Source of the DNA: a virus
Virus record (IMG/VR): IMGVR_UViG_3300033143_005101
Coordinates: 1 to 25,486 of that record
Strand: one strand, 5' to 3'
DNA: 25,486 nt
Both the position numbers and the translations under genes were made by a program. Shown piece after piece: positions 12,220 to 25,486 of the stretch (positions are counted from its first letter, which is position 1; each line of letters starts with the position of its first letter). The notes below the pieces were generated by a model. That model saw only the letters and a program-made list of their open reading frames with translations, searched no databases and was not told the DNA's origin.

Positions 12220-13023
12220 TTATGGTATATTAACATAACAGTATCCATATTCAATAGTTATAGCTTCTCCATCTTCTATTTGTTCTACTGCCCCAAGATG
12301 TAAATACCGACTATTAATATCTGATCGTGTAAAATATTGCTCAGAACCACCATCAACAGTGATATAACTACTTGCTGCTGTTCCATCTAGGTGCAAAAAA
12401 ACCGTATACCATGTGTCTAGACTGACAGAAGTATAAGTCCCGGTGGTTGCACCGCGTCCTCTCATTTCCCAACCATCCTGACCACCGCCGTTTTCATGCC
12501 ATTCAACATATCCTGTACCATTCCATGTAGCATTAGTGTTACCACTCCATCTCATGATTACTATTGAATTTCCGGTATCGATGGTTGCGGAATCGACATA
12601 TAATTCACAAACAACATCAACATCGGTAGTATAAGCAATGGTGGATGATCTAGTCCAATATGTATGACCAAAGGCATCTGTAGCGATAACATTAAGCCCC
12701 TCGGTACAACTATTGGCAGGTGGGGTTCCAGAAAGTGGCGTAAAATCCTCATTTTTTATTTCTGTGCCACCCTCTATCCATGCTGGGTTGAAACCAAGTT
12801 CATATCCAGCTCCAAGGAAACCCTCATTCATTTCACTACCAATATTAGGCGTTGTGCATCCTGTTGAAACACCTGGATAATGCATTATTTGTAAAGCTAA
12901 AAGAGGAAAATTTTCTTTTGGCTGTTTATAATTTATGTTATTATAATCTAATTCATTACAATATAAACTAGATGAAAATATTAAAAGTAATAAACTTATA
13001 ATTACTAAAATATATTTTTTCAT
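12220..13023 (-). CDS. Secreted lectin-like (LamG-type) protein, copy 2
   Basis: This protein has 267 residues from the ATG at 13023, which has AGGAGTGG upstream. An in-frame upstream methionine would add 20 residues but overlaps the preceding gene and lacks a ribosome site. Residues 1-22 form a Sec signal peptide (MKKYILVIISLLLLIFSSSL). The following YC does not fit a lipobox. After a linker (about 23-45), residues of about 95-267 have the alternating beta-strand pattern of a concanavalin/LamG jelly roll, for example DTWYTVFLHLDGTAASSYI and YLHLGAVEQI. It probably binds carbohydrate. The leader and linker are nearly identical, also in DNA, to those of the gene immediately upstream, while the jelly-roll parts differ. 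No catalytic motif was seen. Confidence 0.6.
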   Translation of the reverse strand: MKKYILVIISLLLLIFSSSLYCNELDYNNINYKQPKENFPLLALQIMHYPGVSTGCTTPNIGSEMNEGFLGAGYELGFNPAWIEGGTEIKNEDFTPLSGTPPANSCTEGLNVIATDAFGHTYWTRSSTIAYTTDVDVVCELYVDSATIDTGNSIVIMRWSGNTNATWNGTGYVEWHENGGGQDGWEMRGRGATTGTYTSVSLDTWYTVFLHLDGTAASSYITVDGGSEQYFTRSDINSRYLHLGAVEQIEDGEAITIEYGYCYVNIP

Positions 13024-13038
13024 TAATCCACTCCTAAA
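12896..13038. repeat. 143-bp leader repeat, copy A (pair with 13765-13907)
   Basis: This segment covers the ribosome site, signal peptide and linker of the downstream lectin-like gene. It matches 13765-13907 at 140 of 143 positions by eye. Similarity stops sharply on the payload side. Confidence 0.9.
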
Positions 13039-13055
13039 TTTTAATACTACAATAC

Positions 13056-13892
13056 TTATTCCCACGGGCAGTCTGTTAGCCATCCCGGTAAACTTACGAC
13101 TCTATTAATATCTATATTTTTTGTTGCACCACCCACAGCTCCAATTAACATATAATCAATATCCCCTGTAAATAAAACAAGCGTCCGATCTTCCTCAACA
13201 GTGCCAGTTGACCAAGAATCACCAATTGTTATCGCAACATCATTATCCACATGTACTCTCCATGACATACCAACTGTATTCCAAGTTGATCCGTCACAAG
13301 TAATTAGATCGTTTGAATCCGCTCGGTAGTTAACCCCTCCAGCAAAATAATAAGCTCTCACTTCACCAGGGGGAGTTGATTCAATATGCATTCTTATATA
13401 GTTGTCTGCTGGAGTAGTGTCTGAGGGGGCATAAAATATTCCTATATCACCTGCTGGGCAAGTAGTCGCCACCCTGAATTCAATCCATACTGTTCCAGAA
13501 GTTTTAGATATAAGATCTTCCGCAGAAGAATCATCCCATTTAAGATAATCATCATTCGAATATCTCCAACCTATTGAACCGTCTTTTCCGTAAGATGTAC
13601 CGAATGCTCCATTAAAGTTAGTTCCTGTTGCGTTCGATGCCCCAGAATCATAGCAAATTTGATCATTATCATCTAAAAAATCTCCATCCCAAAATGATGT
13701 ATATGTTCCAATTTGGCAATTATTATCAACAGCACTTACGCCTGAAAAATGTATCATTTGTACGGCTAAAAGAGGAAAATTTTCTTTTGGTTGTTTATAA
13801 TCTATGTTATTATAATCTAATTCACTACAATATAAACTAGATGAAAATATTAAAAGTAATAAACTTATAATTACTAAAATATATTTTTTCAT
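13056..13892 (-). CDS. Secreted lectin-like (LamG-type) protein, copy 1
   Basis: This protein has 278 residues. Its ATG at 13892 overlaps the stop of the upstream gene (TAATG) and has AGGAGTGG upstream. Residues 1-22 are a Sec signal peptide nearly identical to that of the next gene, and a shared linker follows. Residues of about 75-270 have a jelly-roll beta pattern typical of LamG/concanavalin-like domains, including GTVWIEFRVATTC and WNTVGMSWRVHVDNDVAI. Several cysteines (for example in ATTCPAG, LITCDG and TDCPW) could form disulfides after export. A carbohydrate-binding role near the lyase-like giant protein is plausible. It could also be a virion decoration or fibre tip protein. Confidence 0.6.
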   Translation of the reverse strand: MKKYILVIISLLLLIFSSSLYCSELDYNNIDYKQPKENFPLLAVQMIHFSGVSAVDNNCQIGTYTSFWDGDFLDDNDQICYDSGASNATGTNFNGAFGTSYGKDGSIGWRYSNDDYLKWDDSSAEDLISKTSGTVWIEFRVATTCPAGDIGIFYAPSDTTPADNYIRMHIESTPPGEVRAYYFAGGVNYRADSNDLITCDGSTWNTVGMSWRVHVDNDVAITIGDSWSTGTVEEDRTLVLFTGDIDYMLIGAVGGATKNIDINRVVSLPGWLTDCPWE

Positions 13893-13907
13893 TAATCCAC
13901 TCCTAAA
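13765..13907. repeat. 143-bp leader repeat, copy B
   Basis: This segment matches 12896-13038 with three mismatches. Two change residues (N/S and N/D) and one is silent. It includes the ribosome site, signal peptide and linker codons of the upstream lectin-like gene. Confidence 0.9.
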
Positions 13908-14887
13908 CTAAAACCTAATGTTATTAATAAACCCTCTGGTGGTGTACTTGTGCCACCAGCACTGTCAACATCAACTCTTATTATATCTTTTTCTTCAACA
14001 TCATCAAAAGAAGAATTTATTACATAATCACCCGCAAGACCAGATGTATATTCAGTATCATCAATACTTATAACTGTTGATAACATATTACTAGAATTAT
14101 TTTCACTACCATCTCTTTGTGTTTCTCTTATACGATATAGTTGAATATTTGTATTTGTTCCACTATCACTTGCTGTAATAACAGCAGCATTACAATATAC
14201 AAGATTTAGTCCGCCTAGTTTTTGTCCTATATTAAAATAAAAAGCTCCATCGCCTAGTGAAACAGCTTCATCAAAATCTGTTACAATTAATTGAACTTCT
14301 TCATAATCTTGTGTTACTCTATCATCATTATTATTACCAGATACATCTTCTACATAATCTCGTCTTACTCTATAATCAACATCTGTTCCGGGTGTTACAT
14401 GTCTTCTAATTTCATAGTTATCATTATCAACACCATCTGGTGATGGACTATGATTCGGTCCTGTACGATATCTAGTTTCAACTGCCGTTAGTGGTTCATA
14501 ATCTACTGCAGCATTATCTTGAGCAGATGTGCTTACTGCCTTTCCATATAATGTTGTCAAAACCCATCTTTTATCACCAGCGGTACCAGAAGGAAGAATG
14601 ATGTTTGGTGAATCTTGGGGTAATCCGGATGTCGCGTCTAATGTATAAAAATAAGCACCATCATCAGTAACAACAAAAGCAACATCTAAATCATTTAAAT
14701 CAGCACCATCAATTTTACCTAAATAACCAGTTCCAGTACCCTCAAGACCTACAAAAGCTCTAACACGTATAGCACCAGATTCTTCGGCTAGTGTTTGAAA
14801 GTATTCTCTTGTAAATTCTTTTACTTGTGTGTTGTCTTTAGTATAATTTTGATATATACTAAAACCAACCATTAAAAACAATAACAC
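13892..14887 (-). CDS. Membrane-anchored tail-fibre-like protein, copy 2 (start region lost)
   Basis: This protein has 331 residues if read from GTG at 14887; the first ATG in frame is five codons later. It is a paralogue of the upstream gene. It has an N-terminal hydrophobic helix, the PSGTAGDKRW motif typical of phage fibre proteins (about 99-108), and a C-terminal domain (about 200-328) matching the copy 1 domain. An insert of about 70 residues (115-190) with RYRTGPNHSPSPDG is unique to this copy. Its 5' end is unusual: the upstream TAA stop is followed in the same frame by ATA-TTA-GCT-GTA-GTG, homologous to the middle of the copy 1 anchor. The native start codon and ribosome site are absent. 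Translation may reinitiate after the stop. Confidence 0.65.
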   Translation of the reverse strand: MLLFLMVGFSIYQNYTKDNTQVKEFTREYFQTLAEESGAIRVRAFVGLEGTGTGYLGKIDGADLNDLDVAFVVTDDGAYFYTLDATSGLPQDSPNIILPSGTAGDKRWVLTTLYGKAVSTSAQDNAAVDYEPLTAVETRYRTGPNHSPSPDGVDNDNYEIRRHVTPGTDVDYRVRRDYVEDVSGNNNDDRVTQDYEEVQLIVTDFDEAVSLGDGAFYFNIGQKLGGLNLVYCNAAVITASDSGTNTNIQLYRIRETQRDGSENNSSNMLSTVISIDDTEYTSGLAGDYVINSSFDDVEEKDIIRVDVDSAGGTSTPPEGLLITLGFSLGVD

Positions 14888-14899
14888 TACAGCTAATAT

Positions 14900-15676
14900 T
14901 TATGGTGTATATGGTTTTTCAAAACCCAAAGTTACTATTAATCCGCTACCACCAGTTGTGCCAGGCACAGCATCAATATCAACTCTAATAACATCATTTT
15001 CAGCAACATCATCGTTTGATGCATCAATTACAGCAGCCGCTGCGGCTGTATCGGATCCAGTTTCATCTTCATCAATAGTAAGTGTTGTTGTTAACATATC
15101 TACTGTATCTGTCAAATTATAAATTTCAATATCAGTTGTTTCTGAACCCGAACCAGTTGCGGCTGTTATATTTTCAGCATGAACATAAACAAGATTCATA
15201 CCATTTAAACGTTCACCAATATGAAAATAAAACTTACCATCACCAGTTGCGACTTCTGTCACCCATTCGACAACTGACATTTGTATTTCTTCATAATTTG
15301 TTAAAGATGATATTCTACCTGATAATATCCATCTTTTATCACCAGCAGTACCAGAAGGAGTAACAACATTTGGTATATCCTCAGTAGCACCAGAATTATC
15401 ATCTAAAGTATAAAAATAACTAGAACCATCAGCCATTATAACTATACCCATATCAAGATCATTTAATAAAGAAGCATCAACATCATCTAAATCACCAGTT
15501 GCTTCACCATCTATGCCATAAAAACCACGAACTTTTGCAGCACCAGTTCCTTCTGCAAGTTCCTGTAGTTCTTCTCTTGTCATTGGTTCAACTACATCTT
15601 TGTCATAAACTTGATATGTGTTATAACCAACAACTAATACTAATAACAATACAGCTAATATTTTAATATATTTCAT
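14900..15676 (-). CDS. Membrane-anchored tail-fibre-like protein, copy 1
   Basis: This protein has 258 residues, with ATG at 15676 and an AGAGG site upstream. Residues 5-20 form a single hydrophobic helix (KILAVLLLVLVVGYNTY) resembling an uncleaved anchor or signal peptide. Residues 103-118 contain NVVTPSGTAGDKRWIL, a motif frequent in phage tail fibres. Residues of about 137-254 carry a beta-rich domain with DGKFYFHIGERLNGMNLV and DMLTTTLTIDEDETGS, a pattern I associate with the C-terminal domains of phage fibre and virion proteins. It probably takes part in binding surface glycans. Cytoplasmic fibre proteins normally have no membrane helix, so its route into virions is unclear. It follows the gp67-like gene with a 4-base gap. 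Confidence 0.65.
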   Translation of the reverse strand: MKYIKILAVLLLVLVVGYNTYQVYDKDVVEPMTREELQELAEGTGAAKVRGFYGIDGEATGDLDDVDASLLNDLDMGIVIMADGSSYFYTLDDNSGATEDIPNVVTPSGTAGDKRWILSGRISSLTNYEEIQMSVVEWVTEVATGDGKFYFHIGERLNGMNLVYVHAENITAATGSGSETTDIEIYNLTDTVDMLTTTLTIDEDETGSDTAAAAAVIDASNDDVAENDVIRVDIDAVPGTTGGSGLIVTLGFEKPYTP

Positions 15677-15680
15677 TTTA

Positions 15681-15851
15681 TTAATCCTCTTCTTTTTTAG
15701 GTTCTATATCATCTTTTAAATCAAGCTTGTCTTTAAGAAAATCATTTTTTGCTTTTCTTATTTCCTGTGATAATGTTTCTTTAGATCCTACAAAATCATC
15801 ATTTTCAAAACTATCAATTGCTTTTTTTATTTCTTTTGAATCAATTCCCAT
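15681..15851 (-). CDS. 67: Prohead core protein, T4 gp67-like
   Basis: This small 56-residue gene lies directly after the portal gene, where T4 has gene 67 (80 residues). It reads MGIDSKEIKKAIDSFENDDF and then a charged helix with SQEIRKAKNDFLKDKLDLK and an acidic-lysine tail. T4 gp67 has the same design: a short helical region with 'ai.s.D' and 'K..f...i', then a highly charged tail. It should be an internal scaffold component cut by the prohead protease. The ATG at 15851 has GGGAG eight bases upstream; the ATG at 15857 in the same frame is too close to that site. The next gene starts 4 bases after its stop. Similarity is weak, so position carries much of the call. Confidence 0.65.
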   Translation of the reverse strand: MGIDSKEIKKAIDSFENDDFVGSKETLSQEIRKAKNDFLKDKLDLKDDIEPKKEED

Positions 15852-15872
15852 TTTCATCTCTCCCTTCTAACA

Positions 15873-15880: not shown

Positions 15881-17434
15881 TTAATAACCACTATCTTCGT
15901 TTCTAAAACCAAATTCTTTATCTTTTTTCATTCCTTCTACATTCTTTCTTATTTCTTCATCATCCCATTTTAAATATTTTTTCATAAGATAATATCTACT
16001 TATTTCTTCTCTATCTGCTAAACCTTGATATAGATTAAATCTAGTATCTTGAAAATTAGCTTCCATTTGTTCTTTATATTTACTTGGTGGATTCAGTGAT
16101 AATTTTATATTTTCTTCACTTAAATTGTATAACTTTTTAAGACCTTTAAATTCAAGGTGAAGTAAAAATATTTTGGTAAATTCTTTGCTAAACTTTTTTT
16201 GATTTCTCTCTAAGAATTTGGCCCATTTAATTTCATCTCTACTAATATCACCAGTTTGCCCTTGTCCGAACATTATATCAGAACTATTATTTTCTTGTGC
16301 TGACTCAACTCTAGATGCTGGATATTTTAATGATCTGTATAACTTTTTTTGAAAATAATATACATCTTGTAGTTCTGTAAATCCAATATTACTACCACCT
16401 ACAGAATCAATTTGACTTCCACGACCATCAGCAGATTGTGGAATGTAGTAGTTTTCAAGTATACTGAATACATTTGGATCATTAGTTATTTGTCCTGTTG
16501 CTGGATCATAGGATTGTTTCTTTGTCATTTTTTGTTTGATCTTTTCAACATACTTCAATGCTTTATCACGCGGCATATTACCTGTATCAATTCTAAATAC
16601 TAATCTTTCTGGTGCTCTAATAATACGATAAATTATAACAGATGTTTCAAGAAGCTTTAATTGATTATATGGAACTCTTGATTTTTCAAGATAACCAAAT
16701 ATTTCGTATTTTGTTTTTCCATAAACACCATAATTAACAAAACTTATTTGCCTTGGTTCAAATAAAATTAGATCTTTTCCATCTCGCCTTTGTGCCTCTT
16801 CTATTGATTCTGGTTTTTTTGTTTTTGGATTTAAGTATTGAAAATATGATATAATTTTTCCTGATATTGGATCATATATATAATCCATTGTTTCTGTAGG
16901 TAATCTTTTTAAACCTATTATACCATTTTTTGGTTTTCTTACATCTATAATTTTTTCAAAAAACACACGACCATCGATATAATAAGTTTTCATTATATCC
17001 CATAGTGTTTCATTTATATCAATTCTATTTTCAAACAACTCTTTGAATTCATTGTTTATGTTGTTTACTATATTTTCATTATCTTCAAGACCTGGATCTG
17101 TTATATTTAGATGTAGAATATCACCATCTTCATCTTCTTGTGTTGATTCGTTTGTTGCGTCTTCTATAACATCACCAACTTCTGGTAATATTGCCATATT
17201 TCTATATTCTTCTATTTTTTGTAGTTCATTTTCAAATGTTCTGTTGATATATGAGTTATAAAATAAATTAAATGATTGAAGACCTACTTGGCCAACACCT
17301 GGTATATCTTGGATGTTTTCCCAGCCTTCACCTCTAGTAGACATTATATCTCTTATTTTAGGCGCAGGTTTTTCTTTAAAAGCTTTAATCTCTTCATCGA
17401 TTCTGTTATCCCAAAATTTCCAGTTTATTGCCAT
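15881..17434 (-). CDS. 20: Portal vertex protein, T4 gp20-like
   Basis: This 517-residue protein matches T4 gp20 (524) in length and character. It forms the dodecameric ring at one head vertex through which DNA is packaged and ejected and to which the neck attaches. Recognisable stretches are NLFYNSYINRTFENELQKIEEYRNMA (near 55-80), ETLWDIMKTYYIDGRVFFEKIID (about 140-162), GLKRLPTETMDYIYDP (about 172-187), ERLVFRIDTGNMPRDKALKYVEKIKQKM (about 275-302) and SRDEIKWAKFLERNQKKFS (about 393-411). The ATG at 17434 has AAGGGAG upstream. The order portal then gp67-like matches T4. This is the most secure assignment in the window and fixes it as T4-like. Confidence 0.95.
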   Translation of the reverse strand: MAINWKFWDNRIDEEIKAFKEKPAPKIRDIMSTRGEGWENIQDIPGVGQVGLQSFNLFYNSYINRTFENELQKIEEYRNMAILPEVGDVIEDATNESTQEDEDGDILHLNITDPGLEDNENIVNNINNEFKELFENRIDINETLWDIMKTYYIDGRVFFEKIIDVRKPKNGIIGLKRLPTETMDYIYDPISGKIISYFQYLNPKTKKPESIEEAQRRDGKDLILFEPRQISFVNYGVYGKTKYEIFGYLEKSRVPYNQLKLLETSVIIYRIIRAPERLVFRIDTGNMPRDKALKYVEKIKQKMTKKQSYDPATGQITNDPNVFSILENYYIPQSADGRGSQIDSVGGSNIGFTELQDVYYFQKKLYRSLKYPASRVESAQENNSSDIMFGQGQTGDISRDEIKWAKFLERNQKKFSKEFTKIFLLHLEFKGLKKLYNLSEENIKLSLNPPSKYKEQMEANFQDTRFNLYQGLADREEISRYYLMKKYLKWDDEEIRKNVEGMKKDKEFGFRNEDSGY

Positions 17435-17501: not shown

Positions 17502-18155
17502 CTAAAACATATTATAAATTCCAGACCAATTACCATCTATATGAACATAATAATATTGTTTACAATCAAACCACATTTCATAACTATTTTTATATGCTTC
17601 ATTAAATGCTTTTTGTGAATTACCATCTATTGATTTATCTAAATATTCATATAAATCAGTTTTTTCTTCCCTACCTTCTTCTGTTTTCTCACCACCAGAA
17701 TATGTATAATAATCACTTATTCTACTACTTAATTCATCTGGTGCCCATGTTCTATTTGAATTAGAAAAATTCATATCACTAGATCTTACCATAGCATACT
17801 TAAATTTACCTATTGGGAATACAAAACAACGTTGGCCTCCAAACATTCTTATGTGACTCTCATTTGGTGTACATATCATGCTTTCTTTTCGTAATGGAAG
17901 ATTTTTTGATTTCAAATATTTATCCATAAACCCTAACATTGCTAAACCCATTAATCTTGAAAATCTATCTTTTCTAACATTTTTAATTCCAGCATGATAC
18001 CATGCATCAGTATGTATACTACGAAATAAAGGTTTTTTGCCTTTAAGTAATTTAATATATTGATTACAATTTTTTTTAATAAGATTATATAGTTTACTGA
18101 TGTTCTCTACACGTATCTCTTTCTCCGATTCTATTATATAATTTTGTAGTCTCAT
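17502..18155 (-). CDS. Capsid-targeted candidate ADP-ribosyltransferase-like protein (A)
   Basis: This 217-residue protein begins MRLQNYIIE, a capsid-targeting-type leader with a predicted cut after Glu9. Its body resembles the next gene upstream. Shared features are PLFRS with Arg45, an ICTPNES segment around 94-100, FVFPIGKFKYAM (about 111-122), and a C-terminal strand pair E193-MWF followed by KQYYYV. The spaced Arg, Ser/Thr strand and Glu before a hydrophobic strand fit the R-S-E layout of ADP-ribosyltransferases such as T4 Alt, which is also packaged in the head. That fold is an inference from motifs only. The ATGA start overlaps the preceding stop by 4 bases, so translation is coupled. 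Confidence 0.6.
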   Translation of the reverse strand: MRLQNYIIESEKEIRVENISKLYNLIKKNCNQYIKLLKGKKPLFRSIHTDAWYHAGIKNVRKDRFSRLMGLAMLGFMDKYLKSKNLPLRKESMICTPNESHIRMFGGQRCFVFPIGKFKYAMVRSSDMNFSNSNRTWAPDELSSRISDYYTYSGGEKTEEGREEKTDLYEYLDKSIDGNSQKAFNEAYKNSYEMWFDCKQYYYVHIDGNWSGIYNMF

Positions 18156-18787
18156 AGACTTATCATCCCAAATAATGGTAAACTAACTAGATAGTATTTA
18201 TTTGATTTGAACATTATTTCTTTTCTACTTTCAAAATTAGTGTTACCGATACGAAGAACTTTATCTAAATCCTTATCTGTATATGTGTTAACAATGTTTT
18301 TAAACACCGACATATATTTATCCATCCATTCTTCTAATTCTTCATTTGACCATGTAGCTGTTTTCACTTTAGCAATTGGTGATTCATTATATAAATCTGT
18401 AAATGTTTTTGACCAACAATATTTAAATCCGTTCTTTGGGAAAAACACATATGATCTACCACCATTGGCTGTAGCAAAAAACTGTGTTTGCTTTAATGTA
18501 TTAGAAGTCGATATACCATCACGAACATTCCATCCGAATTTCTTCTTGAAAAATCTGTTGAGTTGGTCATGTATTTCTATATCTGTATTACGTGGATCTC
18601 TATCATTTACTCGTCCTGTTTTTTCTACAAAGTTTTTATTATGTTTTGTTCCTCTATAAAATACTTTGTTATACTTTTTATATAACTTTGTTATTTCACT
18701 ACAGTTTTTTGCAATTAGATCCTTTGCTTTGTCAGCTTCTTCTTTTGTTGGTAATTCTGATTCTGTTATATATTTAGATAGTCTCAT
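18152..18787 (-). CDS. Capsid-targeted candidate ADP-ribosyltransferase-like protein (B)
   Basis: This 211-residue protein begins MRLSKYITE, with a predicted cut after Glu9. The body has FYRGT (43-47, Arg45), RDPRNT (63-68), FGWNVRDGISTSNT (84-97, Ser-Thr-Ser at 93-95), SYVFFPKNGFKYCWS (112-126) and E190-IMFKSNKYYLV near the end. An Arg in YRG, an STS strand and a Glu just before a hydrophobic strand form the R-S-E arrangement of ADP-ribosyltransferases. The residue two before the Glu is Arg, not the usual Glu/Gln, which would change target choice or argue against activity. ATGA overlap couples it to the upstream gene. Confidence 0.6.
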   Translation of the reverse strand: MRLSKYITESELPTKEEADKAKDLIAKNCSEITKLYKKYNKVFYRGTKHNKNFVEKTGRVNDRDPRNTDIEIHDQLNRFFKKKFGWNVRDGISTSNTLKQTQFFATANGGRSYVFFPKNGFKYCWSKTFTDLYNESPIAKVKTATWSNEELEEWMDKYMSVFKNIVNTYTDKDLDKVLRIGNTNFESRKEIMFKSNKYYLVSLPLFGMISL

Positions 18788-19632
18788 CTACCATACCTAT
18801 TCAAAAAATCATCCATACTTTTACCACATTGAATCATTAAAGATTTACCTTCTGTCCATACTTCATTTTTACCAATGGCAGAATTCATTGTTGATGTGGT
18901 AACAAGTCTAAAATCATTATTATTTGGATCAAGTTTTTGTTCTATCATTTTGTATAGATCACCAGAATATTTATCCATAACTATCCACATGGCTCTTATA
19001 TCATAATCATTACCATTAGTAGAATCGTATACTACTTCTTCTAATATATCTTTATTATATCTTTGGTTTTTATACCATTTATCAAATGATTTGAATGCTT
19101 TTTTTATAGTCGTGATGTCTTTATCAAATTTTTCAAGACCACCTTTTCTTCTGGTTCTTTCATTTTTTTTAACTTTCATTCCTATGTTGGATAAAATATT
19201 GATAATATAATTTACCTCATTCATACCTTTATAAAAAGAATTTTTAAAAGCATCCCATAGATCATTAGTAGGACATACTCCTATTGTGCTACCGTTTTCT
19301 GGAAATACTCTATGTGGGGCATTAATACCACAACTCGTATTAATACTACATATTAAACTTCTGCCTCGTCTGGGATATTTTTTCCATTTAGATGAGTTAT
19401 CCATTATGAGTGTATAATAATTACTTGTATTTCTACTTACTCTTTCTTCACCTGTTTTTGGATCTATTAGATAGTATTGTATTTTCCATGAATCCATTTG
19501 TCTAGCAATGGTTGTACCACTTTCTATAGCATCACTATATTTTGGTGAGATTTTAAGAGCTTCTTCAAGCGAGATTTCTTTACCTCTACCTTCTTTCTTG
19601 TATTTTTCTGTTATGTAGTATTTGAATCTCAT
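18784..19632 (-). CDS. Capsid-targeted candidate ADP-ribosyltransferase-like protein (C)
   Basis: This 282-residue protein begins MRFKYYITE, with a predicted cut after Glu9. It has TIARQMD (41-47, Arg44), RVSRNTSNYYTLIMDN (64-79), RRGRSLICSINTSCG (88-102), HRVFPENGSTIGVCPTNDLWDAF (107-129), and near the end NEVWTEGKSLMI (Glu257). The order Arg, NTxNYYT, SLICS and EVWT resembles a family I associate with T4-like phages and is compatible with an R-S-E ADP-ribosyltransferase fold. The evidence is motif-level only. A charged helical insert lies between about 130 and 210. It overlaps the upstream 97-aa gene by ATGA and starts the run of three similar tagged proteins before the portal gene. Confidence 0.6.
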   Translation of the reverse strand: MRFKYYITEKYKKEGRGKEISLEEALKISPKYSDAIESGTTIARQMDSWKIQYYLIDPKTGEERVSRNTSNYYTLIMDNSSKWKKYPRRGRSLICSINTSCGINAPHRVFPENGSTIGVCPTNDLWDAFKNSFYKGMNEVNYIINILSNIGMKVKKNERTRRKGGLEKFDKDITTIKKAFKSFDKWYKNQRYNKDILEEVVYDSTNGNDYDIRAMWIVMDKYSGDLYKMIEQKLDPNNNDFRLVTTSTMNSAIGKNEVWTEGKSLMIQCGKSMDDFLNRYGR

Positions 19633-19922
19633 AGTGTTGTGACTTCTAATTGGGTAACATGATAATAAATTTTATTGTTCTTTGTTATTTTCCATATAAT
19701 TTTATATATATCTACAGTTGATGTAACAGTTGTATTCACATCAGCAAAGATTACATTACTATTTTTTGCTGCAATTGTTTCTGAAACAACAGTTGTACTA
19801 TCACTATCAAGTATGCTATAATGCGCTATGTCTGGTGCAAATGCATTACCATCCTGATCTATAATCGTAATTTCAAGAACCCTAACTTCATAGAGGTTCA
19901 TTGTTTGATAGGTATATGCCAT
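19629..19922 (-). CDS. Small beta-rich protein, probably virion-related
   Basis: This 97-residue protein has ATG at 19922 with AAGGAG upstream, directly after the stop of the previous gene. It consists of alternating hydrophobic strands (YEVRVLEITIIDQDGN, YSILDSDSTTVV, VDIYKIIWKITKNNKIYYHVTQLEV) and looks like a single Ig-like or tail-accessory beta domain. It lacks the [LI]xE leader of its neighbours, so it is not predicted to be an internal head protein. The position between a basic protein and the tagged genes before the portal suggests a head or neck role. The family was not recognised. Confidence 0.55.
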   Translation of the reverse strand: MAYTYQTMNLYEVRVLEITIIDQDGNAFAPDIAHYSILDSDSTTVVSETIAAKNSNVIFADVNTTVTSTVDIYKIIWKITKNNKIYYHVTQLEVTTL

Positions 19923-20417
19923 TTACTTTCTCCTTTTCTTAGATCTTTTTCTCATTATTCTTCTGAATTTATTGAGAAGCGAGCTTTTAATCTTTTTACT
20001 AAAGTCTTTGTGCCAAGTACTTATAACAGCTTTATTAATATTATCAAATGGTATTTTTTCAAGCTTTGTTATATAATAATTTGGCTTGTAAAAGTATCTT
20101 CTTACAGCATGTTGTATTTGTGGATATTTTGCTTTAACTTTCTCCCATGTAAATTTGGGGTTATTAGTTTTTTCTAATTGTGCTTTCCATTCTTCAACAA
20201 ATCGTTTTCTTATTGTACGCGGGACATAAGTAAAATTGATACATTGTATAAATCTCCATTGGTGTCCTGTTCTTGGATGTATACCTTGTAGCCAATACAT
20301 AAATATAACAGTAGGTTCCGGATCATTTTCCCATGCTTGATACCGGAATTTATAAAAATGGCCGCTTTGAAGATCCACACCTTTAAATTTCTTTTTATAT
20401 TTTCGTGTTATTGCCAT
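19923..20417 (-). CDS. Basic protein of unknown function
   Basis: This 164-residue protein starts at ATG 20417; the upstream GTGGAA is only a weak ribosome site. The N-terminal half contains aromatic strands with YKFRYQAWENDPEPTVIFMY and GIHPRTGHQWRFIQCINFTYVP. The C-terminus is extremely basic (KKIKSSLLNKFRRIMRKRSKKRRK pattern), which suggests contact with DNA or RNA. There is no capsid-targeting leader, membrane segment or known catalytic motif. I did not recognise the family. Tight coupling to the 97-aa gene (stop and start adjacent) suggests they work together. Confidence 0.6.
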   Translation of the reverse strand: MAITRKYKKKFKGVDLQSGHFYKFRYQAWENDPEPTVIFMYWLQGIHPRTGHQWRFIQCINFTYVPRTIRKRFVEEWKAQLEKTNNPKFTWEKVKAKYPQIQHAVRRYFYKPNYYITKLEKIPFDNINKAVISTWHKDFSKKIKSSLLNKFRRIMRKRSKKRRK

Positions 20418-20449
20418 TCTTGTTTATTCCACTACTAACAATGTTTCCA

Positions 20450-20671
20450 TTATAGTTTTTTATATATTTTATTTAAATCATTAATGTATTTTTTTAGAAA
20501 TCTTCTTGTAACATCTTCTAATAATTCAAAATCATACTTCCCACTTATGATTTTCATATCTGTTATGAATTGTTTTGATAGTTTTACAAGTTCGTTTGCT
20601 CGTGAACTATCACCACCAAAAATTTCTAATCCTCTACCGAATTCATTCAAATACTTATCTAGTTTACTCAT
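20450..20671 (-). CDS. Capsid-targeted small helical protein
   Basis: This 73-residue protein begins MSKLDKYLNE, with a predicted cut after Glu10. The rest is two amphipathic helices (about 26-45 and 49-72) ending in a lysine-rich DLNKIYKKL. After processing only about 63 residues would remain. Its ATG overlaps the stop of the upstream membrane-protein gene. No known family was recognised; packaging in the head is inferred from the leader. Confidence 0.65.
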   Translation of the reverse strand: MSKLDKYLNEFGRGLEIFGGDSSRANELVKLSKQFITDMKIISGKYDFELLEDVTRRFLKKYINDLNKIYKKL

Positions 20672-20793
20672 TTTATTTCTTCCTTTACCTTTCCTTTCAT
20701 TTTATCATATATTGTTTTTACCCATAATGGTTGTGGTAGAAGATTCCAACCAATAATAAGTCCTACTACTATTCCTATAATTAAATATATCAT
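20668..20793 (-). CDS. Small single-pass membrane protein
   Basis: This short 41-residue gene starts at ATG 20793 with TATAGGAGTG upstream. Residues 1-17 are a hydrophobic helix with glycines (MIYLIIGIVVGLIIGW). NLLPQPLWVKTIYDKMKGK and a charged end follow. It has one predicted inner-membrane helix and no capsid leader. Its TGA overlaps the next ATG. Similar small proteins with GWN-LPQP are, from memory, seen in other T4-like phages, but the function is unknown. Confidence 0.65.
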   Translation of the reverse strand: MIYLIIGIVVGLIIGWNLLPQPLWVKTIYDKMKGKVKEEIK

Positions 20794-20806
20794 AATTTTT
20801 ACACTC

Positions 20807-21010
20807 CTATAGAAATTTTTCTATATCTTTTAATCTTGTTTTAATCCACTTGTATGATTTCTTTGCCATTTTGATGTTATCATATTGTATCATTTTCTCT
20901 ATATCTTCAAGTGTATCAATAAGACCTAAAAATACTGGCCTTGTATCTGGTGTTGGTTTAGTGCTAACACCATCACCCATTTTCTCATTCAAATACTTTT
21001 CTATTTTCAT
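20807..21010 (-). CDS. Capsid-targeted small helical protein
   Basis: This 67-residue protein begins MKIEKYLNE, with a predicted cut after Glu9. A Gly/Pro/Thr-rich linker (about 10-25) leads to two helices with VFLGLIDTLEDIEKMI and MAKKSYKWIKTRLKDIEKFL. The ATGA start overlaps the 2H phosphoesterase stop by 4 bases, so the two are translated together and probably packaged together. No family was recognised. Confidence 0.65.
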   Translation of the reverse strand: MKIEKYLNEKMGDGVSTKPTPDTRPVFLGLIDTLEDIEKMIQYDNIKMAKKSYKWIKTRLKDIEKFL

Positions 21011-21543
21011 TTTATCCTCATTTCTAGTTCAAATTTATTATTCCATAATTCTATTTCTGTTGGTTTAAGAGTTGGTAGCTTAGGTAAATTATTTTTTATA
21101 TCATTTAGAACATCACCTGTTAGTTTACCTTGCTCTACCGTAAGTAATGATACATGAGGTTTCACTGTAGCAAATTTTGTTATCTCAAAGTTATTATCTA
21201 TGTCATTGAAATATTGTAAGAATTTCATATTGGGTTTATATTCGATAACAATAAAATCTTTTTTAACTTTCTGTCCATAGAATACTGTCAAATCTTTTGG
21301 ATTGAATTTCATGTTTAGATCAAATTTATTTAGTTGTCTTACTAGCTCATCTTTTGGATATGTTTTTGGAATTTGAGCTATAGTAAAATGAGGTTTTCTT
21401 TCTTGTTCATATTTGATTTTATGTTTTATCAACCAGCTCTTTATATAGCTTGATACTTTTTTAAGATCGGATGGATTGACACCAAATCCAACCATTGTGC
21501 CTTTAAGTTTTTTAGATTCTGTTAGATAGTCCTGTAGTCTCAT
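21007..21543 (-). CDS. Capsid-targeted 2H phosphoesterase
   Basis: This 178-residue protein has leader MRLQDYLTE (predicted cut after Glu9) fused to a 2H phosphoesterase domain. The two signature motifs are His52-Phe-Thr54 (KPHFTIAQI) and His130-Val-Ser132 (KPHVSLLTV), 78 residues apart, each in a hydrophobic strand as in LigT/2'-5' RNA ligase-like enzymes. The superfamily cleaves 2'-5' or cyclic phosphodiester bonds. T4 Acb1, a 2H enzyme, destroys CBASS cyclic nucleotide signals, and viral 2H enzymes remove 2-5A. I infer an early anti-defence enzyme delivered with the DNA; RNA repair is the main alternative. The substrate cannot be read from the sequence. The ATG at 21543 follows the previous stop by 2 bases. 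Confidence 0.8.
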   Translation of the reverse strand: MRLQDYLTESKKLKGTMVGFGVNPSDLKKVSSYIKSWLIKHKIKYEQERKPHFTIAQIPKTYPKDELVRQLNKFDLNMKFNPKDLTVFYGQKVKKDFIVIEYKPNMKFLQYFNDIDNNFEITKFATVKPHVSLLTVEQGKLTGDVLNDIKNNLPKLPTLKPTEIELWNNKFELEMRIK

Positions 21544-21545
21544 AA

Positions 21546-21806
21546 TTAACCTTCTATTTTCATAAACCCATGAGTGAGATGTTCTATTGCCTCAGATATT
21601 CTATCTACTGCATCATCCATATTTCTTGATGCAGCATCAAACTCACCAGCAATATCACCATATTTTCTATCTAGTTGTTCTGATAGTCTTGATGCTTTCA
21701 TTAAATCCTTTTCAGCTTTTTTCAGCAATAATTTTATAGGCATCATATCTTTTTTACTTTTTTTCTCTTCACTTAAATATTTGTTTATGTTTTCTATTGT
21801 TTTCAT
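21546..21806 (-). CDS. Capsid-targeted coiled-coil protein
   Basis: This 86-residue protein begins MKTIENINKYLSE, with a predicted cut after Glu13. A lysine-rich stretch (EKKSKKD) follows, then a long helix of heptad character from about 24 to 80 (KLLLKKAEKDLMKASRLSEQ, then DDAVDRISEAIEHL). The AAGGAAG ribosome site precedes ATG 21806. Coiled-coil cargo might form part of the scaffold core. The family was not recognised. Confidence 0.65.
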   Translation of the reverse strand: MKTIENINKYLSEEKKSKKDMMPIKLLLKKAEKDLMKASRLSEQLDRKYGDIAGEFDAASRNMDDAVDRISEAIEHLTHGFMKIEG

Positions 21807-21818
21807 TTTTATCTTCCT

Positions 21819-22028
21819 TTATATACTTCTTAATATATTATCTAATTCTACTTTAAGGCTTGTTAATTCTAATGTAAGTATTTCTTTTAGATGCTCTGGT
21901 GTATCATATGGAAAGTTTCCAATTTTTACAACTCTTTGTATTCCTGTTAGTTTTAATTTTATTTCTTTTAGTTGTTTCCATATATCTTTATTGGAAATTG
22001 TTTCTGTTATATATCGTTGTAGTTTCAT
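21819..22028 (-). CDS. Capsid-targeted small helical protein
   Basis: This 69-residue protein begins MKLQRYITE, with a predicted cut after Glu9. The remainder is one or two helices (DIWKQLKEIKLKLTGI and HLKEILTLELTSLKVELDNIL) around a short NFPYDTP loop. The ATG overlaps the stop of the gp4-like gene as ATGA. The function is unknown; it is grouped with the internal head protein set by its leader. Confidence 0.65.
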   Translation of the reverse strand: MKLQRYITETISNKDIWKQLKEIKLKLTGIQRVVKIGNFPYDTPEHLKEILTLELTSLKVELDNILRSI

Positions 22029-22459
22029 TTAAATAATTCCTGCTCACTTATAATCTTCCATTGATAACCAAATTTCTTACAATACTTTTGAGCCGCAGAG
22101 AACTTTGCTTGGTTGGTTATATATGTAGCTTCTTGATATAGTTTTGTTTTCTTTGACTGCTTATTTGTTTTTCTTGGCGGTACAGTTTCTTTCTTTGGTT
22201 TTATTTCTATTATATATTCTGTATATCCATTGTTATTTTTTATCTTTGCATAAAAGTCTGGAATATATCTTCTATTTTTCATTTGCATTGGATCATAGTA
22301 GGGTATATAATGTCTTTCACTAGACCACTTTATTATATTTTCATTATAATCAAGCCATTGGGCAAATTTTAATTCCCATGATGATCTAAATTTGATTGGG
22401 AACTTACCAATATATTTATCTATAAATTTAGGAATATATGGATACTGTTTGCGTTGCAT
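22025..22459 (-). CDS. 4: Head completion protein, T4 gp4-like
   Basis: This 144-residue protein is close to T4 gp4 (about 150 residues), needed to finish DNA-filled heads. The pattern matches: KFRSSWELKFAQWLD (23-37), NIIKWSSERHYIPYYDP (41-57), RRYIPDFYAKI (63-73) and YIIEIKPKKE (82-91). Glu29, Asp68 and Glu85-x-Lys87 lie in an order typical of PD-(D/E)XK nucleases, which suggests a nuclease-like fold, perhaps trimming packaged DNA ends. It has no [LI]xE leader, unlike its neighbours. Its ATG directly abuts the previous stop (TAAATG), and its own stop overlaps the next start. Confidence 0.85.
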   Translation of the reverse strand: MQRKQYPYIPKFIDKYIGKFPIKFRSSWELKFAQWLDYNENIIKWSSERHYIPYYDPMQMKNRRYIPDFYAKIKNNNGYTEYIIEIKPKKETVPPRKTNKQSKKTKLYQEATYITNQAKFSAAQKYCKKFGYQWKIISEQELFK

Positions 22460-22711
22460 TTATTTAAAATAATCATTAAGATCTTTTAATTCGTTGACTA
22501 AATATTTTATATCATCAACATAATTTAAGTCTAATTCGGATTCTTGAAAAAATCTATTTTGATGATTTCTTAATTTTGTTTTAAATATATTAAGAATAGA
22601 TGATGCTTCTTTTTGATATTTTTTATAATCATCAAATGCTCTTTTTTTCATTGGGTTTGCTGGTATAACAGCTTCATCAATATACTTATCAATCTTGTTT
22701 ATTGTTTCCAT
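22460..22711 (-). CDS. Capsid-targeted small helical protein
   Basis: This 83-residue protein begins METINKIDKYIDE, with a predicted cut after Glu13. A short basic linker (NPMKKRAF) is followed by helices (YQKEASSILNIFKTKLRNHQ and DDIKYLVNELKDLNDYF). AAGGAA precedes ATG 22711. Its leader DNA is almost the same as that of the gene at 23236-23637, which suggests leader duplication. Function unknown. Confidence 0.65.
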   Translation of the reverse strand: METINKIDKYIDEAVIPANPMKKRAFDDYKKYQKEASSILNIFKTKLRNHQNRFFQESELDLNYVDDIKYLVNELKDLNDYFK

Positions 22712-22721
22712 AATTATTCCT

Positions 22722-22949
22722 TTATGCTTTTACTATTTCTTTATTATGGTATTCATATGTTTCTTTATCACCAGAAAATTTAACATTATAAACCACTAAT
22801 GATGTGCCTATTCTCTCTATAACCTTTGTGACATTACCTACTTCTTTTTTTCCGAATGGGCCGTTTTTCTTCTCTTTAACCTTATCTCCAACTTTAAGAG
22901 ATATTTTCTTTTCATTCAAATACTTGTCTATGTTTTCTAATATATTCAT
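22722..22949 (-). CDS. Capsid-targeted SH3/KOW-like small protein
   Basis: This 75-residue protein begins MNILENIDKYLNE, with a predicted cut after Glu13. The body LKVGDKVKEKKNG, EVGNVTKVIERIG, LVVYNVKFSGDKETYEYH is a run of short strands, opening like KOW/SH3-type barrels (VGDxVxxxx..G.V..V). Such domains often bind nucleic acids or proteins. AAGGAAT precedes ATG 22949. The fold call is by pattern only. Confidence 0.65.
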   Translation of the reverse strand: MNILENIDKYLNEKKISLKVGDKVKEKKNGPFGKKEVGNVTKVIERIGTSLVVYNVKFSGDKETYEYHNKEIVKA

Positions 22950-22964
22950 TTTATTATTCCTTTT

Positions 22965-23225
22965 TTAATTTAATTTTAGAAGTTTAAATTTCATTTTATC
23001 TACTAATTTGATCATTTGTGAGGTTTCTTTCTTTGATATTTTAGAGAAATCTCTGTGACCCATTATTTCTCTTATTATATCATCTATACTGTCAATTTTT
23101 TTATATAATGATAATAATTCTGGATTATCATCTGAGTCTATGCTCATCCATCCTTTATCTGTTTTAAAGCTTACAGATGATGATTCTTCATTCAAATATT
23201 TGTCTATGATTTCTGATATACTCAT
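22965..23225 (-). CDS. Capsid-targeted small protein
   Basis: This 86-residue protein begins MSISEIIDKYLNE, with a predicted cut after Glu13. A short strand region (SVSFKTDKGWMSIDSDD) is followed by helices (LLSLYKKIDSIDDIIREIM and KKETSQMIKLVDKMKFKLLK). AAGGAGTG precedes ATG 23225. The family was not recognised. Confidence 0.65.
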   Translation of the reverse strand: MSISEIIDKYLNEESSSVSFKTDKGWMSIDSDDNPELLSLYKKIDSIDDIIREIMGHRDFSKISKKETSQMIKLVDKMKFKLLKLN

Positions 23226-23235
23226 TAATCACTCC

Positions 23236-23637
23236 TTATAAAAATTTTCTTATTCTTTTACCTGTAGATGTTTTACCTTGCTTAGCTTTTCTTTTTGATT
23301 TTCGTTTATATTGTTTGAATTTTGTAGTTCGTCTATATTTCTTAGCTCTAAGTTTAAGCTTAGCTCTATTTTTTCTATATTCCATTTTTCGCTTTCTTTT
23401 ATCAGCTACTTTGATCTTGACTTTTTTCTTTGCAAAGTCTTCATCAACATCATCAGTTTCATCAGCCAAATTATCTATTATATCAATATAAGAATCCGTC
23501 ATATTTTCTGGAATTTGTTCTGGATCAAGCTTTTGCATAAACTCAAACATTTTATCCATTAGCTTATCATCAAAATTGTCTTCCTCTGTTTCCTCTGTTT
23601 CTTCTATATATTTATCAATCTTGTCTATTGTTTCCAT
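23236..23637 (-). CDS. Capsid-targeted acidic/basic two-part protein (paralogue 1)
   Basis: This 133-residue protein begins METIDKIDKYIEE, with a predicted cut after Glu13. An acidic part with MFEFMQKLDPEQI (30-42) and YIDIIDNLADETDDVDE (50-66) is followed by a very basic tail (70-133, many Lys/Arg, TSTGKRIRKFL end). It shares this plan with the gene at 24104-24676. The basic tail suggests DNA binding inside the head, like T4 internal proteins. AAGGAA precedes the ATG. A second processing event near Val64-Asp-Glu66 could free the basic part, although Val is not the usual residue. Confidence 0.7.
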   Translation of the reverse strand: METIDKIDKYIEETEETEEDNFDDKLMDKMFEFMQKLDPEQIPENMTDSYIDIIDNLADETDDVDEDFAKKKVKIKVADKRKRKMEYRKNRAKLKLRAKKYRRTTKFKQYKRKSKRKAKQGKTSTGKRIRKFL

Positions 23638-23639
23638 TA

Positions 23640-23858
23640 TTATTTCCTTTTGTTTAGAAATGCCTTTCCTGTTTTTTTACTTAATTCAAGTTTGGTTCCT
23701 TTTCTTTCTATAATACTTTTACAAAATTCACAGATATAATCACCACTTTTTAAAGCCCATACTTTAAAAAATTTTCCTTGACAATTGATACATTCATATC
23801 TTTTAGATATTTCTTTTTCAATAATAAAATATTTGTTTATTTTAATTATAGTATTCAT
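23640..23858 (-). CDS. Capsid-targeted zinc ribbon protein
   Basis: This protein has 72 residues from the ATG at 23858, chosen because it gives the leader MNTIIKINKYFIIE (predicted cut after Glu14); the frame is open further upstream but lies inside another gene. Cys23-x2-Cys26 and Cys43-x2-Cys46 form a zinc ribbon, with a lysine-rich end (SKKTGKAFLNKRK). Zinc ribbons of this size often bind nucleic acid or RNA polymerase. If injected, it might act on host transcription at once; that is speculation. It overlaps the preceding gene by 17 bases. Confidence 0.7.
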   Translation of the reverse strand: MNTIIKINKYFIIEKEISKRYECINCQGKFFKVWALKSGDYICEFCKSIIERKGTKLELSKKTGKAFLNKRK

Positions 23859-24102
23859 TAGTTCTATTATCTTTTTCTGATTCCCATTCTTTTTCGTTAC
23901 TACCAATACCAATATCTTCAAAATTATCCATTATTCTTTCTCTTTCTATACCACCAAATTCATAATCAAAGTGATACCATTTTTTCCCATCAAACCAAAA
24001 AACACCAACACTACTAAAATTATTATCTTCAATATATTTTAGAGCTTTCTTTATTTTGTCTTTCGGTATCTTGGATTCGTTTAAATATTCTTTAAATTTC
24101 AT
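23842..24102 (-). CDS. Capsid-targeted small protein
   Basis: This protein has 86 residues from the ATG at 24102, one base after the previous stop codon. The frame is open further upstream, but only this start gives the leader MKFKEYLNE (predicted cut after Glu9). The body has a helix (KDKIKKALKYIEDN), then strands with VGVFWFDGKKWYHFDYEF and an acidic C-terminus. There is no strong ribosome site, so reinitiation after the preceding stop is likely. The family was not recognised. Confidence 0.65.
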   Translation of the reverse strand: MKFKEYLNESKIPKDKIKKALKYIEDNNFSSVGVFWFDGKKWYHFDYEFGGIERERIMDNFEDIGIGSNEKEWESEKDNRTNEYYN

Positions 24103-24103
24103 A

Positions 24104-24676
24104 TTAGTTTGTATGTCCTCTTGTGTTATATCTTGTATCATTACGACCAGTTGCTGTTCTATCACTAGCTTTCATTATCTTCTTTTTGTTTTTCATAGCA
24201 TTATCAAATTTCTTTTTCTTTTTCTTGATTTTTTCTTTATTTAATCTGGCATATTTTTTAGAGTAACGATTATGACTCATTTTACTTTTCTTTGATTTGA
24301 GTATAGATTCATCAATATCATCTTGTGATTCCATATCTTGAATAATATCCATAGCTGTCTGTAGTTGGCCCGTATCAAGTATATCTGGATCAATATTCAT
24401 AATGAACGAAAACATTCGCCCAAAAATATGTTCATCCATATTCCATATCATAGGAGTTAGGAAATCTTCTATATTTTCAGTTATATATTTTAGATCTTTT
24501 GCTACTTTTTCCATATAATCTAATACTTGTTCTGCTTTTTTGCCCTTCAATCCTTGTAACGATTTTAGTTTAAATTTTTTTAGTGCTTTTTTATACATAA
24601 CGGTTGCATCTGGGTTAATAGATAAATCAGAATCATAATCTCCTTCATTCAAATATTTATCAATTGTTTTCTTCAT
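24104..24676 (-). CDS. Capsid-targeted acidic/basic two-part protein (paralogue 2)
   Basis: This 190-residue protein begins MKKTIDKYLNE, with a predicted cut after Glu11. A helical middle contains MFSFIMNIDPDIL (88-100) and AMDIIQDMESQDDIDE (108-123). A strongly basic tail follows (SILKSKKSKM onward, with a KIKKKKKKF run). Ile121-Asp-Glu123 is itself an [LI]xE site exactly at the acidic-to-basic junction, so the protease could release a free basic peptide. The plan is shared with the gene at 23236-23637. The role is probably internal head protein or DNA condensation. Its ATG lies inside the previous gene (17-base overlap). Confidence 0.7.
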   Translation of the reverse strand: MKKTIDKYLNEGDYDSDLSINPDATVMYKKALKKFKLKSLQGLKGKKAEQVLDYMEKVAKDLKYITENIEDFLTPMIWNMDEHIFGRMFSFIMNIDPDILDTGQLQTAMDIIQDMESQDDIDESILKSKKSKMSHNRYSKKYARLNKEKIKKKKKKFDNAMKNKKKIMKASDRTATGRNDTRYNTRGHTN

Positions 24677-25040
24677 CTTTTTTCTCCTCTTGTGGATCTT
24701 CTACTGGCTCTTCTTGATTAACACCTCTGGCCATGAATTCTGGTTTTCTCATTGGAACCATTTGGGCACCTCTATCTAATGCGGCCACAATAGCTCTCAA
24801 GGCTAGAATGAACTCACCATGTTCTTTAGAAAGATCTACGAGTAGCTGGTTTACTTTTCTTTGAAACACAGGATTTTCTTCAACCGCATCAATTTGTTTT
24901 TCTATTTGCTCTATAACCGCATCAATTTGTTTTTCTATTTGCTCTATAAACTTTTCGATTTTATCATCAAGTTTATGTAATGAGGGTTTCAGTTTTCGCT
25001 TTTCCTCAGTTAGAAATGTTTTTAGTTTATCGTTACTCAT
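24660..25040 (-). CDS. Capsid-targeted coiled-coil protein with 11-residue repeat
   Basis: This 126-residue protein begins MSNDKLKTFLTE, with a predicted cut after Glu12. A helix with a tandem repeat IEQIEKQIDAV twice (about 33-54) is encoded by an exact 33-bp tandem duplication. A second helix (VNQLLVDLSKEHGEFILALR) follows, and then an acidic tail. The ATG overlaps the stop of the previous gene (ATGA), with a GAAGGTGGG site upstream. It may be a core or scaffold component. No family was recognised. Confidence 0.65.
   Translation of the reverse strand: MSNDKLKTFLTEEKRKLKPSLHKLDDKIEKFIEQIEKQIDAVIEQIEKQIDAVEENPVFQRKVNQLLVDLSKEHGEFILALRAIVAALDRGAQMVPMRKPEFMARGVNQEEPVEDPQEEKKDEENN
24882..24947. 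repeat. 33-bp perfect in-frame tandem repeat
   Basis: Bases 24882-24914 and 24915-24947 are identical (AACCGCATCAATTTG...). The unit encodes 11 residues and lengthens a coiled coil without shifting the frame. Confidence 0.95.
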
Positions 25041-25228
25041 AATATCCCACCTTCTTGAAGTGCTTTTATTTTTTTAATAATGTCTTTATCTAATTGTTTC
25101 TTTTCTTCTTCATTCATATAGACAAACTTATCTATAACTTCATCAAGTGTTAGTTTAAAGTAATACTCTGATGTTCTTTTAGATGGTGATTTTGTTATTA
25201 TATCAAGTTTATCAAGTATATTAGTCAT
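25037..25228 (-). CDS. Small helical protein without the leader motif
   Basis: This protein has 63 residues from ATG 25228 (MTNILDKLDIITKS); a GTG five codons earlier is less likely. It overlaps the upstream gene by 8 bases and the next by 4. Charged helices with LTLDEVIDKFVYMNEEEKKQLDKDIIKKIKALQ. Its N-terminus resembles the longer leaders loosely but lacks [LI]xE after an aromatic residue, so it is not counted as capsid-targeted. Function unknown. Confidence 0.6.
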   Translation of the reverse strand: MTNILDKLDIITKSPSKRTSEYYFKLTLDEVIDKFVYMNEEEKKQLDKDIIKKIKALQEGGIL

Positions 25229-25486
25229 CTTCGTACATTTCACCTGTTTTGTAATTAATTGTTACTGAATAACTTTTCATATCTATTGTATCAAAGTTTA
25301 CTGTTATTTGTTTTTCATTATTATAACTTGTAGATTGATATGATCCTAATATTCTCCACAGCTTTAAATTATTCTTTTTTATATATTCTTTTATTTTCTT
25401 TGCTGAATATGAATTTATTAATGACCATGTTTTTTTATCTTCTTTTGGTTTTATAGATTTTATTATTTTGGCTTCAAATACTATAT
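25221..25486 (-). CDS. C-terminal part of an unknown protein (cut by window edge)
   Basis: The frame is open from the window edge to TAA at 25223-25221, about 87 residues. It reads VFEAKIIKSIKPKEDKKTWS, then NNLKLWRILGSYQST, then KQITVNFDTIDMKSYSVTIN, ending KTGEMYEDD. The mix of a lysine-rich helix and three beta strands suggests a small folded domain. The start lies beyond the window, so the presence of a leader cannot be judged. The family was not recognised. Confidence 0.6.
   Translation of the reverse strand, partial: IVFEAKIIKSIKPKEDKKTWSLINSYSAKKIKEYIKKNNLKLWRILGSYQSTSYNNEKQITVNFDTIDMKSYSVTINYKTGEMYEDD

Follow-up and report, generated by a model that had tools for sequence, protein, structure and literature searches.

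Why should sixteen neighboring proteins of one phage, most of them unrelated to one another, begin with the same kind of short segment? The question is raised by the window, which here means the whole 25,486-base viral fragment that was analyzed and whose source is an uncultivated T4-like bacterial virus. On its minus strand, a block of 21 genes precedes the gene for a T4-type portal, after which come a 58-aa gene, a run of secreted-looking proteins, and genes for the tail tube and baseplate. Of the 21 proteins in the block, 16 open in frame with a leader of 9-14 residues that ends in [YF][LI]xE, as the original prediction had it, and the five block genes described there as leaderless, the gp4-like gene among them, do lack the segment (25037-25231, 22025-22459, 20668-20793, 19923-20417, and 19629-19922). 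The tagged proteins were also said to be mostly unrelated, which holds for the set as a whole with the exception of two paralogue pairs, 18152-18787/17502-18155 and 24104-24676/23236-23637.

All of these genes lie on the minus strand, many of the leader genes are preceded by an AGGA/GGAG-like ribosome-binding site, and leaders are given here up to the predicted cut. At the end farthest from the portal gene, the leaderless 25037-25231, almost entirely outside 17502-25040, is followed by a conserved helical protein of 126 aa (MSNDKLKTFLTE, 24660-25040) with leader-bearing homologues in L005, L032, L041, and L076. A 190-aa protein with a very basic C terminus (MKKTIDKYLNE, 24104-24676) and its 133-aa paralogue with a basic C terminus (METIDKIDKYIEE, 23236-23637) enclose two genes with internal ATG starts, which encode an 86-aa protein (MKFKEYLNE, 23842-24102) and a 72-aa protein with a zinc-ribbon-like CxxC...CxxC part and an atypical leader (MNTIIKINKYFIIE, 23640-23858). 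Three leader proteins of 86 aa (MSISEIIDKYLNE, 22965-23225), 75 aa (MNILENIDKYLNE, 22722-22949), and 83 aa (METINKIDKYIDE, 22460-22711) come next; the 75-aa gene is duplicated in L041, where the tandem copies (L041:4443-4928) have nearly identical mature parts and differing leaders. Beyond the leaderless gene for a gp4-like head-closure protein (22025-22459; phrog_218, E=1.3e-42; PF08722) lie leader genes for proteins of 69 aa (MKLQRYITE, 21819-22028), 86 aa (MKTIENINKYLSE, 21546-21806), 178 aa (MRLQDYLTE, 21007-21543), and 67 aa (MKIEKYLNE, 20807-21010), then a small hydrophobic, membrane-like protein of 41 aa without a leader (20668-20793) and a 73-aa leader protein (MSKLDKYLNE, 20450-20671). 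The leaderless gp2-like DNA end protector (19923-20417; phrog_429, E=8.9e-6) and a leaderless 97-aa protein with no assigned function (19629-19922) precede three larger leader proteins of one superfamily, of 282 aa (MRFKYYITE, 18784-19632), 211 aa (MRLSKYITE, 18152-18787), and 217 aa (MRLQNYIIE, 17502-18155). The portal protein (gp20; 15881-17434; PF07230, E=3.6e-100) is leaderless, and the 58-aa gene after it (15681-15857) is gp67-like by position only; its 57 homologous ORFs in portal-selected contigs have no leader.

Between the portal and tail tube genes, the window encodes proteins with signal-peptide-like N termini (12220-15676), two of them nearly identical (MKKYILVIISLLLLIFSSSLYC), which is unusual for late phage structural genes. 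The same region of L041 holds a signal-peptide-like N terminus with a lipobox-like LIGC (L041:12013-12966), and a repetitive 2535-aa protein in the structural region of the window (4600-12207) also begins with a signal-peptide-like segment and matches nothing in Pfam.

With the search pattern M-x(3-16)-[YF][LI]xE, leaders were found in none of the 11 other window genes and in none of 97 internal 20-residue segments. Shuffling of whole proteins gave a mean of 0.37 leaders and a maximum of four in 5000 rounds, and shuffling of the N termini a mean of 0.45 with the same maximum. Together with the control residues at P1, the shuffles rule out chance or amino acid composition as the source of the leaders.

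Aligned on the terminal Glu (P1), all 16 leaders have Leu or Ile at P3 and Tyr or Phe at P4, figures that, like that for P1, were preset by the search pattern. The figure for P7, hydrophobic in 15 of the 16, is independent of the pattern, and the same position is hydrophobic in 84% of 173 leaders from related contigs. P2, P5, and P6 are mostly polar, longer leaders tend toward an extra hydrophobic residue at P10/P11, and the outlier is 23640-23858 (KYFIIE), whose P7 is not hydrophobic. The window leader agrees position by position with T4 MKTYQEFIAE, whose P7, P4, P3, and P1 residues are Y, F, I, and E. In T4, mutagenesis tied residues 4 and 7 of the CTS (P7 and P4) to targeting and residues 8 and 10 (P3 and P1) to processing (reviewed in PMC9026906). 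The T4 proteins IPI, IPII, IPIII, and Alt, which gp21 processes, offer the nearest likeness, with an N-terminal leader of about 10 residues ending in [LI]xE, an aromatic P4, and a hydrophobic P7; the two systems also share diverse mature proteins and a T4-type portal, and an S77 protease is seen here in relatives. As a separate observation, T4 gp61.1 (L118:18966-19130), annotated as hypothetical, starts MKTFKEFIKE, which closely resembles the capsid-targeting sequence of T4.

Our answer is that the leader would act as a portable propeptide that targets proteins to the capsid, of the kind known from the T4 internal proteins. Its short amphipathic segment, hydrophobic at P7, P4, and P3, would dock each protein onto the prohead scaffold, and a phage gp21-type protease would cut after [LI]xE, so that the mature protein would be set free in the head before the DNA is packaged. 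During infection, the cargo set would probably be ejected with the DNA and act ahead of any phage gene expression. We infer the docking step, cleavage in this particular phage, ejection, and what every cargo protein does. Judged from sequence comparison, packaging in the head and cleavage by the prohead protease are very probable, and ejection into the host, argued by analogy with T4, is likely.

Homologues were searched for with the mature parts only, so the leader played no role in finding them. A leader is present in 34 of 49 homologues of the leader genes and in 0 of 167 homologues of the leaderless genes (gp4-like, 0/13; gp2-like, 0/13; the 97-aa protein, 0/12; portal, tube, and others). 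Many of the homologues without a full leader retain some [LI]xE, and in a few the Glu or the N terminus is missing, the P1 Glu being gone in L041 (KYLHTD) and in L035 and L039 (KYIMG). By this sequence evidence the leaders are inherited along with their gene families. The T4 counterparts of the gp4-like and gp2-like proteins act on the filled head and have no need of prohead targeting.

This inheritance bears on the idea that the common N termini are a functionless relic of gene duplication, for which the two paralogue pairs speak, as do five YLNE leaders, which have the rare Leu codon TTG in common and suggest copying of 5' ends. It is scarcely credible, since the mature parts are mostly unrelated, the leader is kept in orthologues whose mature parts are only 25-50% identical, and synonymous codons across the 16 leaders are no more alike than expected (identity 296 versus 289 expected). 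There being no overall codon excess, we also reject the view that recently duplicated leader DNA explains everything. A post hoc observation is that TTG encodes the YLNE Leu in 11 of 13 leaders of the window and its two nearest relatives, L041 and L032, and makes up ~5% of window Leu codons, and some leaders may for this reason derive from copying at the DNA level.

Neither a gp21-type (S77) protease gene nor a capsid gene occurs in the 25,486-base window. In a portal search, 80 related loci were found, and an S77 prohead protease is encoded in 32 of the 33 longer portal-related contigs, shortly after the portal where coordinates were compared, as well as in G036 and G037, two contigs found via the 2H protein described below. 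Searches with the 282-aa protein and the baseplate proteins yielded no close relatives, or one distant locus. The closest long relative, L041/G013, has a portal that is 82% identical, keeps the cargo block, and has tail genes after the portal as in the window. No protease or capsid gene is found within its 76.8 kb contig, and its head-maturation genes are presumably located in another part of the genome; with none in the window or in this contig, the local cleavage machinery is assumed. Two further features of this relative are an intein in the portal gene (L041:9772-11775; PF14890, residues 334-460), with a similar length excess in L072, and an extra ORF inside the cargo block beside the gp4-like gene (L041:5199-6050), possibly an HNH-like homing endonuclease as judged by eye, with a weak zinc-finger match only.

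The major capsid proteins of relatives open with MLENQHNYLMEQ, MLENQHAYLTET, and similar sequences, mostly MLEN...[YF][LM]xE, the same type of cleavage site as in the leader, seen in relatives only. Where P1 is another residue, an [LIM]xE usually follows a few residues on. In this lineage, therefore, [YF]LxE also stands at the start of the protein that corresponds to the classic gp21 substrate of T4. The missing P1 Glu in a few homologues would fit a leader that directs proteins elsewhere (membrane, replication site, or tail) or that acts as an uncut docking peptide. We give this very little credence, because E at P1 is strongly preferred across the surveyed relatives, capsid proteins carry the same motif at their N termini, and the gp2-like and gp4-like neighbors lack the leader. 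Packaging in the prohead followed by cleavage, as originally predicted, is supported instead by the match to the T4 leader, the protease and capsid site of relatives, the leaderless gp2-like and gp4-like head-completion genes within one operon with the leader genes, and inheritance with gene families.

Among the proteins that the tag would carry is the 178-aa protein 21007-21543. Its two H-x-[TS] motifs, H52-F-T54 and H130-x-S132, are invariant in five homologues, its Pfam match to PF13563 is weak, and its structural model (pLDDT 71) matches Usb1 (E=7.7e-7), a phage BCSR5 PDE (1.2e-4), and Acb1 (6.1e-4) in Foldseek. Acb1 is an anti-CBASS nuclease. The model indicates a 2H phosphoesterase fold, which makes this protein a candidate degrader of cyclic-nucleotide defense signals or RNA ends. 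The three proteins of 17502-19632 contain YRG..., S/T-rich, and E[VI][MW] motifs as in ADP-ribosyltransferases; with respect to the R-S-E triad, they have an invariant R45 and E190 and an S/T-rich strand. Searches for an ART fold or profile with Pfam, PDB profiles, Foldseek, and hhalign to T4 ModA/ModB returned nothing significant, and since the motif fits but no search gave a significant match, we call them ART-like only. The likely enzymes of the window cargo would be one 2H phosphoesterase and three ADP-ribosyltransferase-like proteins. A PADLOC search gave no useful match. Tagged proteins of relatives include a CCA-adding enzyme, a deoxyribonucleotidase, HAD phosphatases, a methyltransferase, a carbon-nitrogen hydrolase, and a zeta-like kinase; in the CCA-adding enzyme, homology to solved structures begins at residue 26, and the tag stands ahead of a complete enzyme.

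Other leader proteins raise the alternative that the set is packaged and cleaved but remains in the head to form the core or condense DNA, with few or none entering the host. Two window leader proteins have an acidic N-terminal and a very basic C-terminal part, conserved across relatives, several are small and helical, and T4 core proteins are likewise gp21 substrates; the small basic leader proteins probably do help to condense DNA or form the core. As an account of the whole set, retention is rather unlikely, because a tagged 2H phosphoesterase, CCA-adding enzyme, methyltransferase, and nucleotidase are implausible as scaffold and ejection is known for the T4 internal proteins and Alt.

Ejected or retained, a virion location can be set beside data from a cultured phage. 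The three proteins of 17502-19632 are distantly homologous to a tandem array in the Agrobacterium phage Atu_ph07 (CDS 53-64, as counted; L097:8427-20320); the 282-aa protein matches phrog_12810 at E=4.9e-33 and the array at 3e-17 in tblastn. The array comprises ~12 related proteins, most with MRWxQLTE-type leaders and one also with a zeta-toxin-like kinase domain. In Atu_ph07, CDS 31-76 form one of three clusters holding most of the virion proteins found by MS, with 29 detected there (PMC6102473). The array falls inside this cluster, the MS evidence being at the level of the cluster and not of each array protein. It differs from the window block in being one paralogous family in tandem and in having a leader without the P4 aromatic; Atu_ph07 is enriched for another form, M[KR]..[LI]xE (25 observed versus 7.5 expected).

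To place the window among phages, enrichment was expressed as the excess of [YF][LI]xE N termini per 100 kb, with one gene caller throughout and other P1 residues as control. The window has an excess of 50, and the relatives have 17 (G006), 10 (G013), 17 (G014), 18 (G007), 11 (G002), 6 (G005), and 11 (G036). Among cultured phages the values are 2.5 for T4, 1.2 for KVP40, 3.3 for PTm1 (noisy), 1.0 for RaK2 (first 160 kb), 0.6 for S-PM2, and 0.2 for phiM12, and HTVC008M has no excess. A set comparable to that of the window is absent in HTVC008M, S-PM2, phiM12, RaK2 (first 160 kb), and KVP40. The motif search suggested by the original prediction gives an excess of ~6-18 per 100 kb in relatives versus ~2.5 in T4 and close to zero in most other cultured T4-like phages, and the relatives in this clade use the tag several times more often than T4. 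Further differences from T4 are that 16 tagged genes stand here in one block, directly upstream of the portal gene, and that several mature parts are recognizable enzymes.

The claim that the set is unusually large holds in comparison with T4 and other cultured T4-like phages but not in general, since giant phages are known for large sets of head proteins that are processed or packaged. The phiKZ-like phages (phiKZ, 201phi2-1, and SPN3US) have many head proteins, and a gp21 homologue cuts a number of these after Glu, the products being ejected or packaged; their motifs are [SA]xE or AxE and the SPN3US propeptides are mostly >100 residues, whereas the leaders here are short and end in LxE. ARTs and 2H domains have also been proposed as head-packaged effectors of the MuF/polyvalent type (PMC9503650), where they are fused to head proteins, in contrast to the small removable tag on each protein here. 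The arrangement is a variant, on a larger scale, of the internal-protein system of T4 and not a new kind.

For the clade of uncultivated T4-like phages as a whole, there is perhaps an even chance that one short, removable tag is a general code for packaging, by which perhaps 15-30 different proteins are loaded per head and delivered ahead of phage gene expression, among them immune-signal phosphodiesterases, enzymes for tRNA repair and for nucleotides, and ADP-ribosyltransferase-like effectors, and that the injected proteome can be read from the tag. If so, sequence alone would suffice to list the proteins that these phages inject, across a whole uncultivated group, and these proteins would form a set of candidate early anti-defense and takeover proteins, most of them without known function. 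The T4 packaging tag would then have been scaled up to a large enzyme cargo, and its natural variants would be available for loading cargo into T4-type phage heads.
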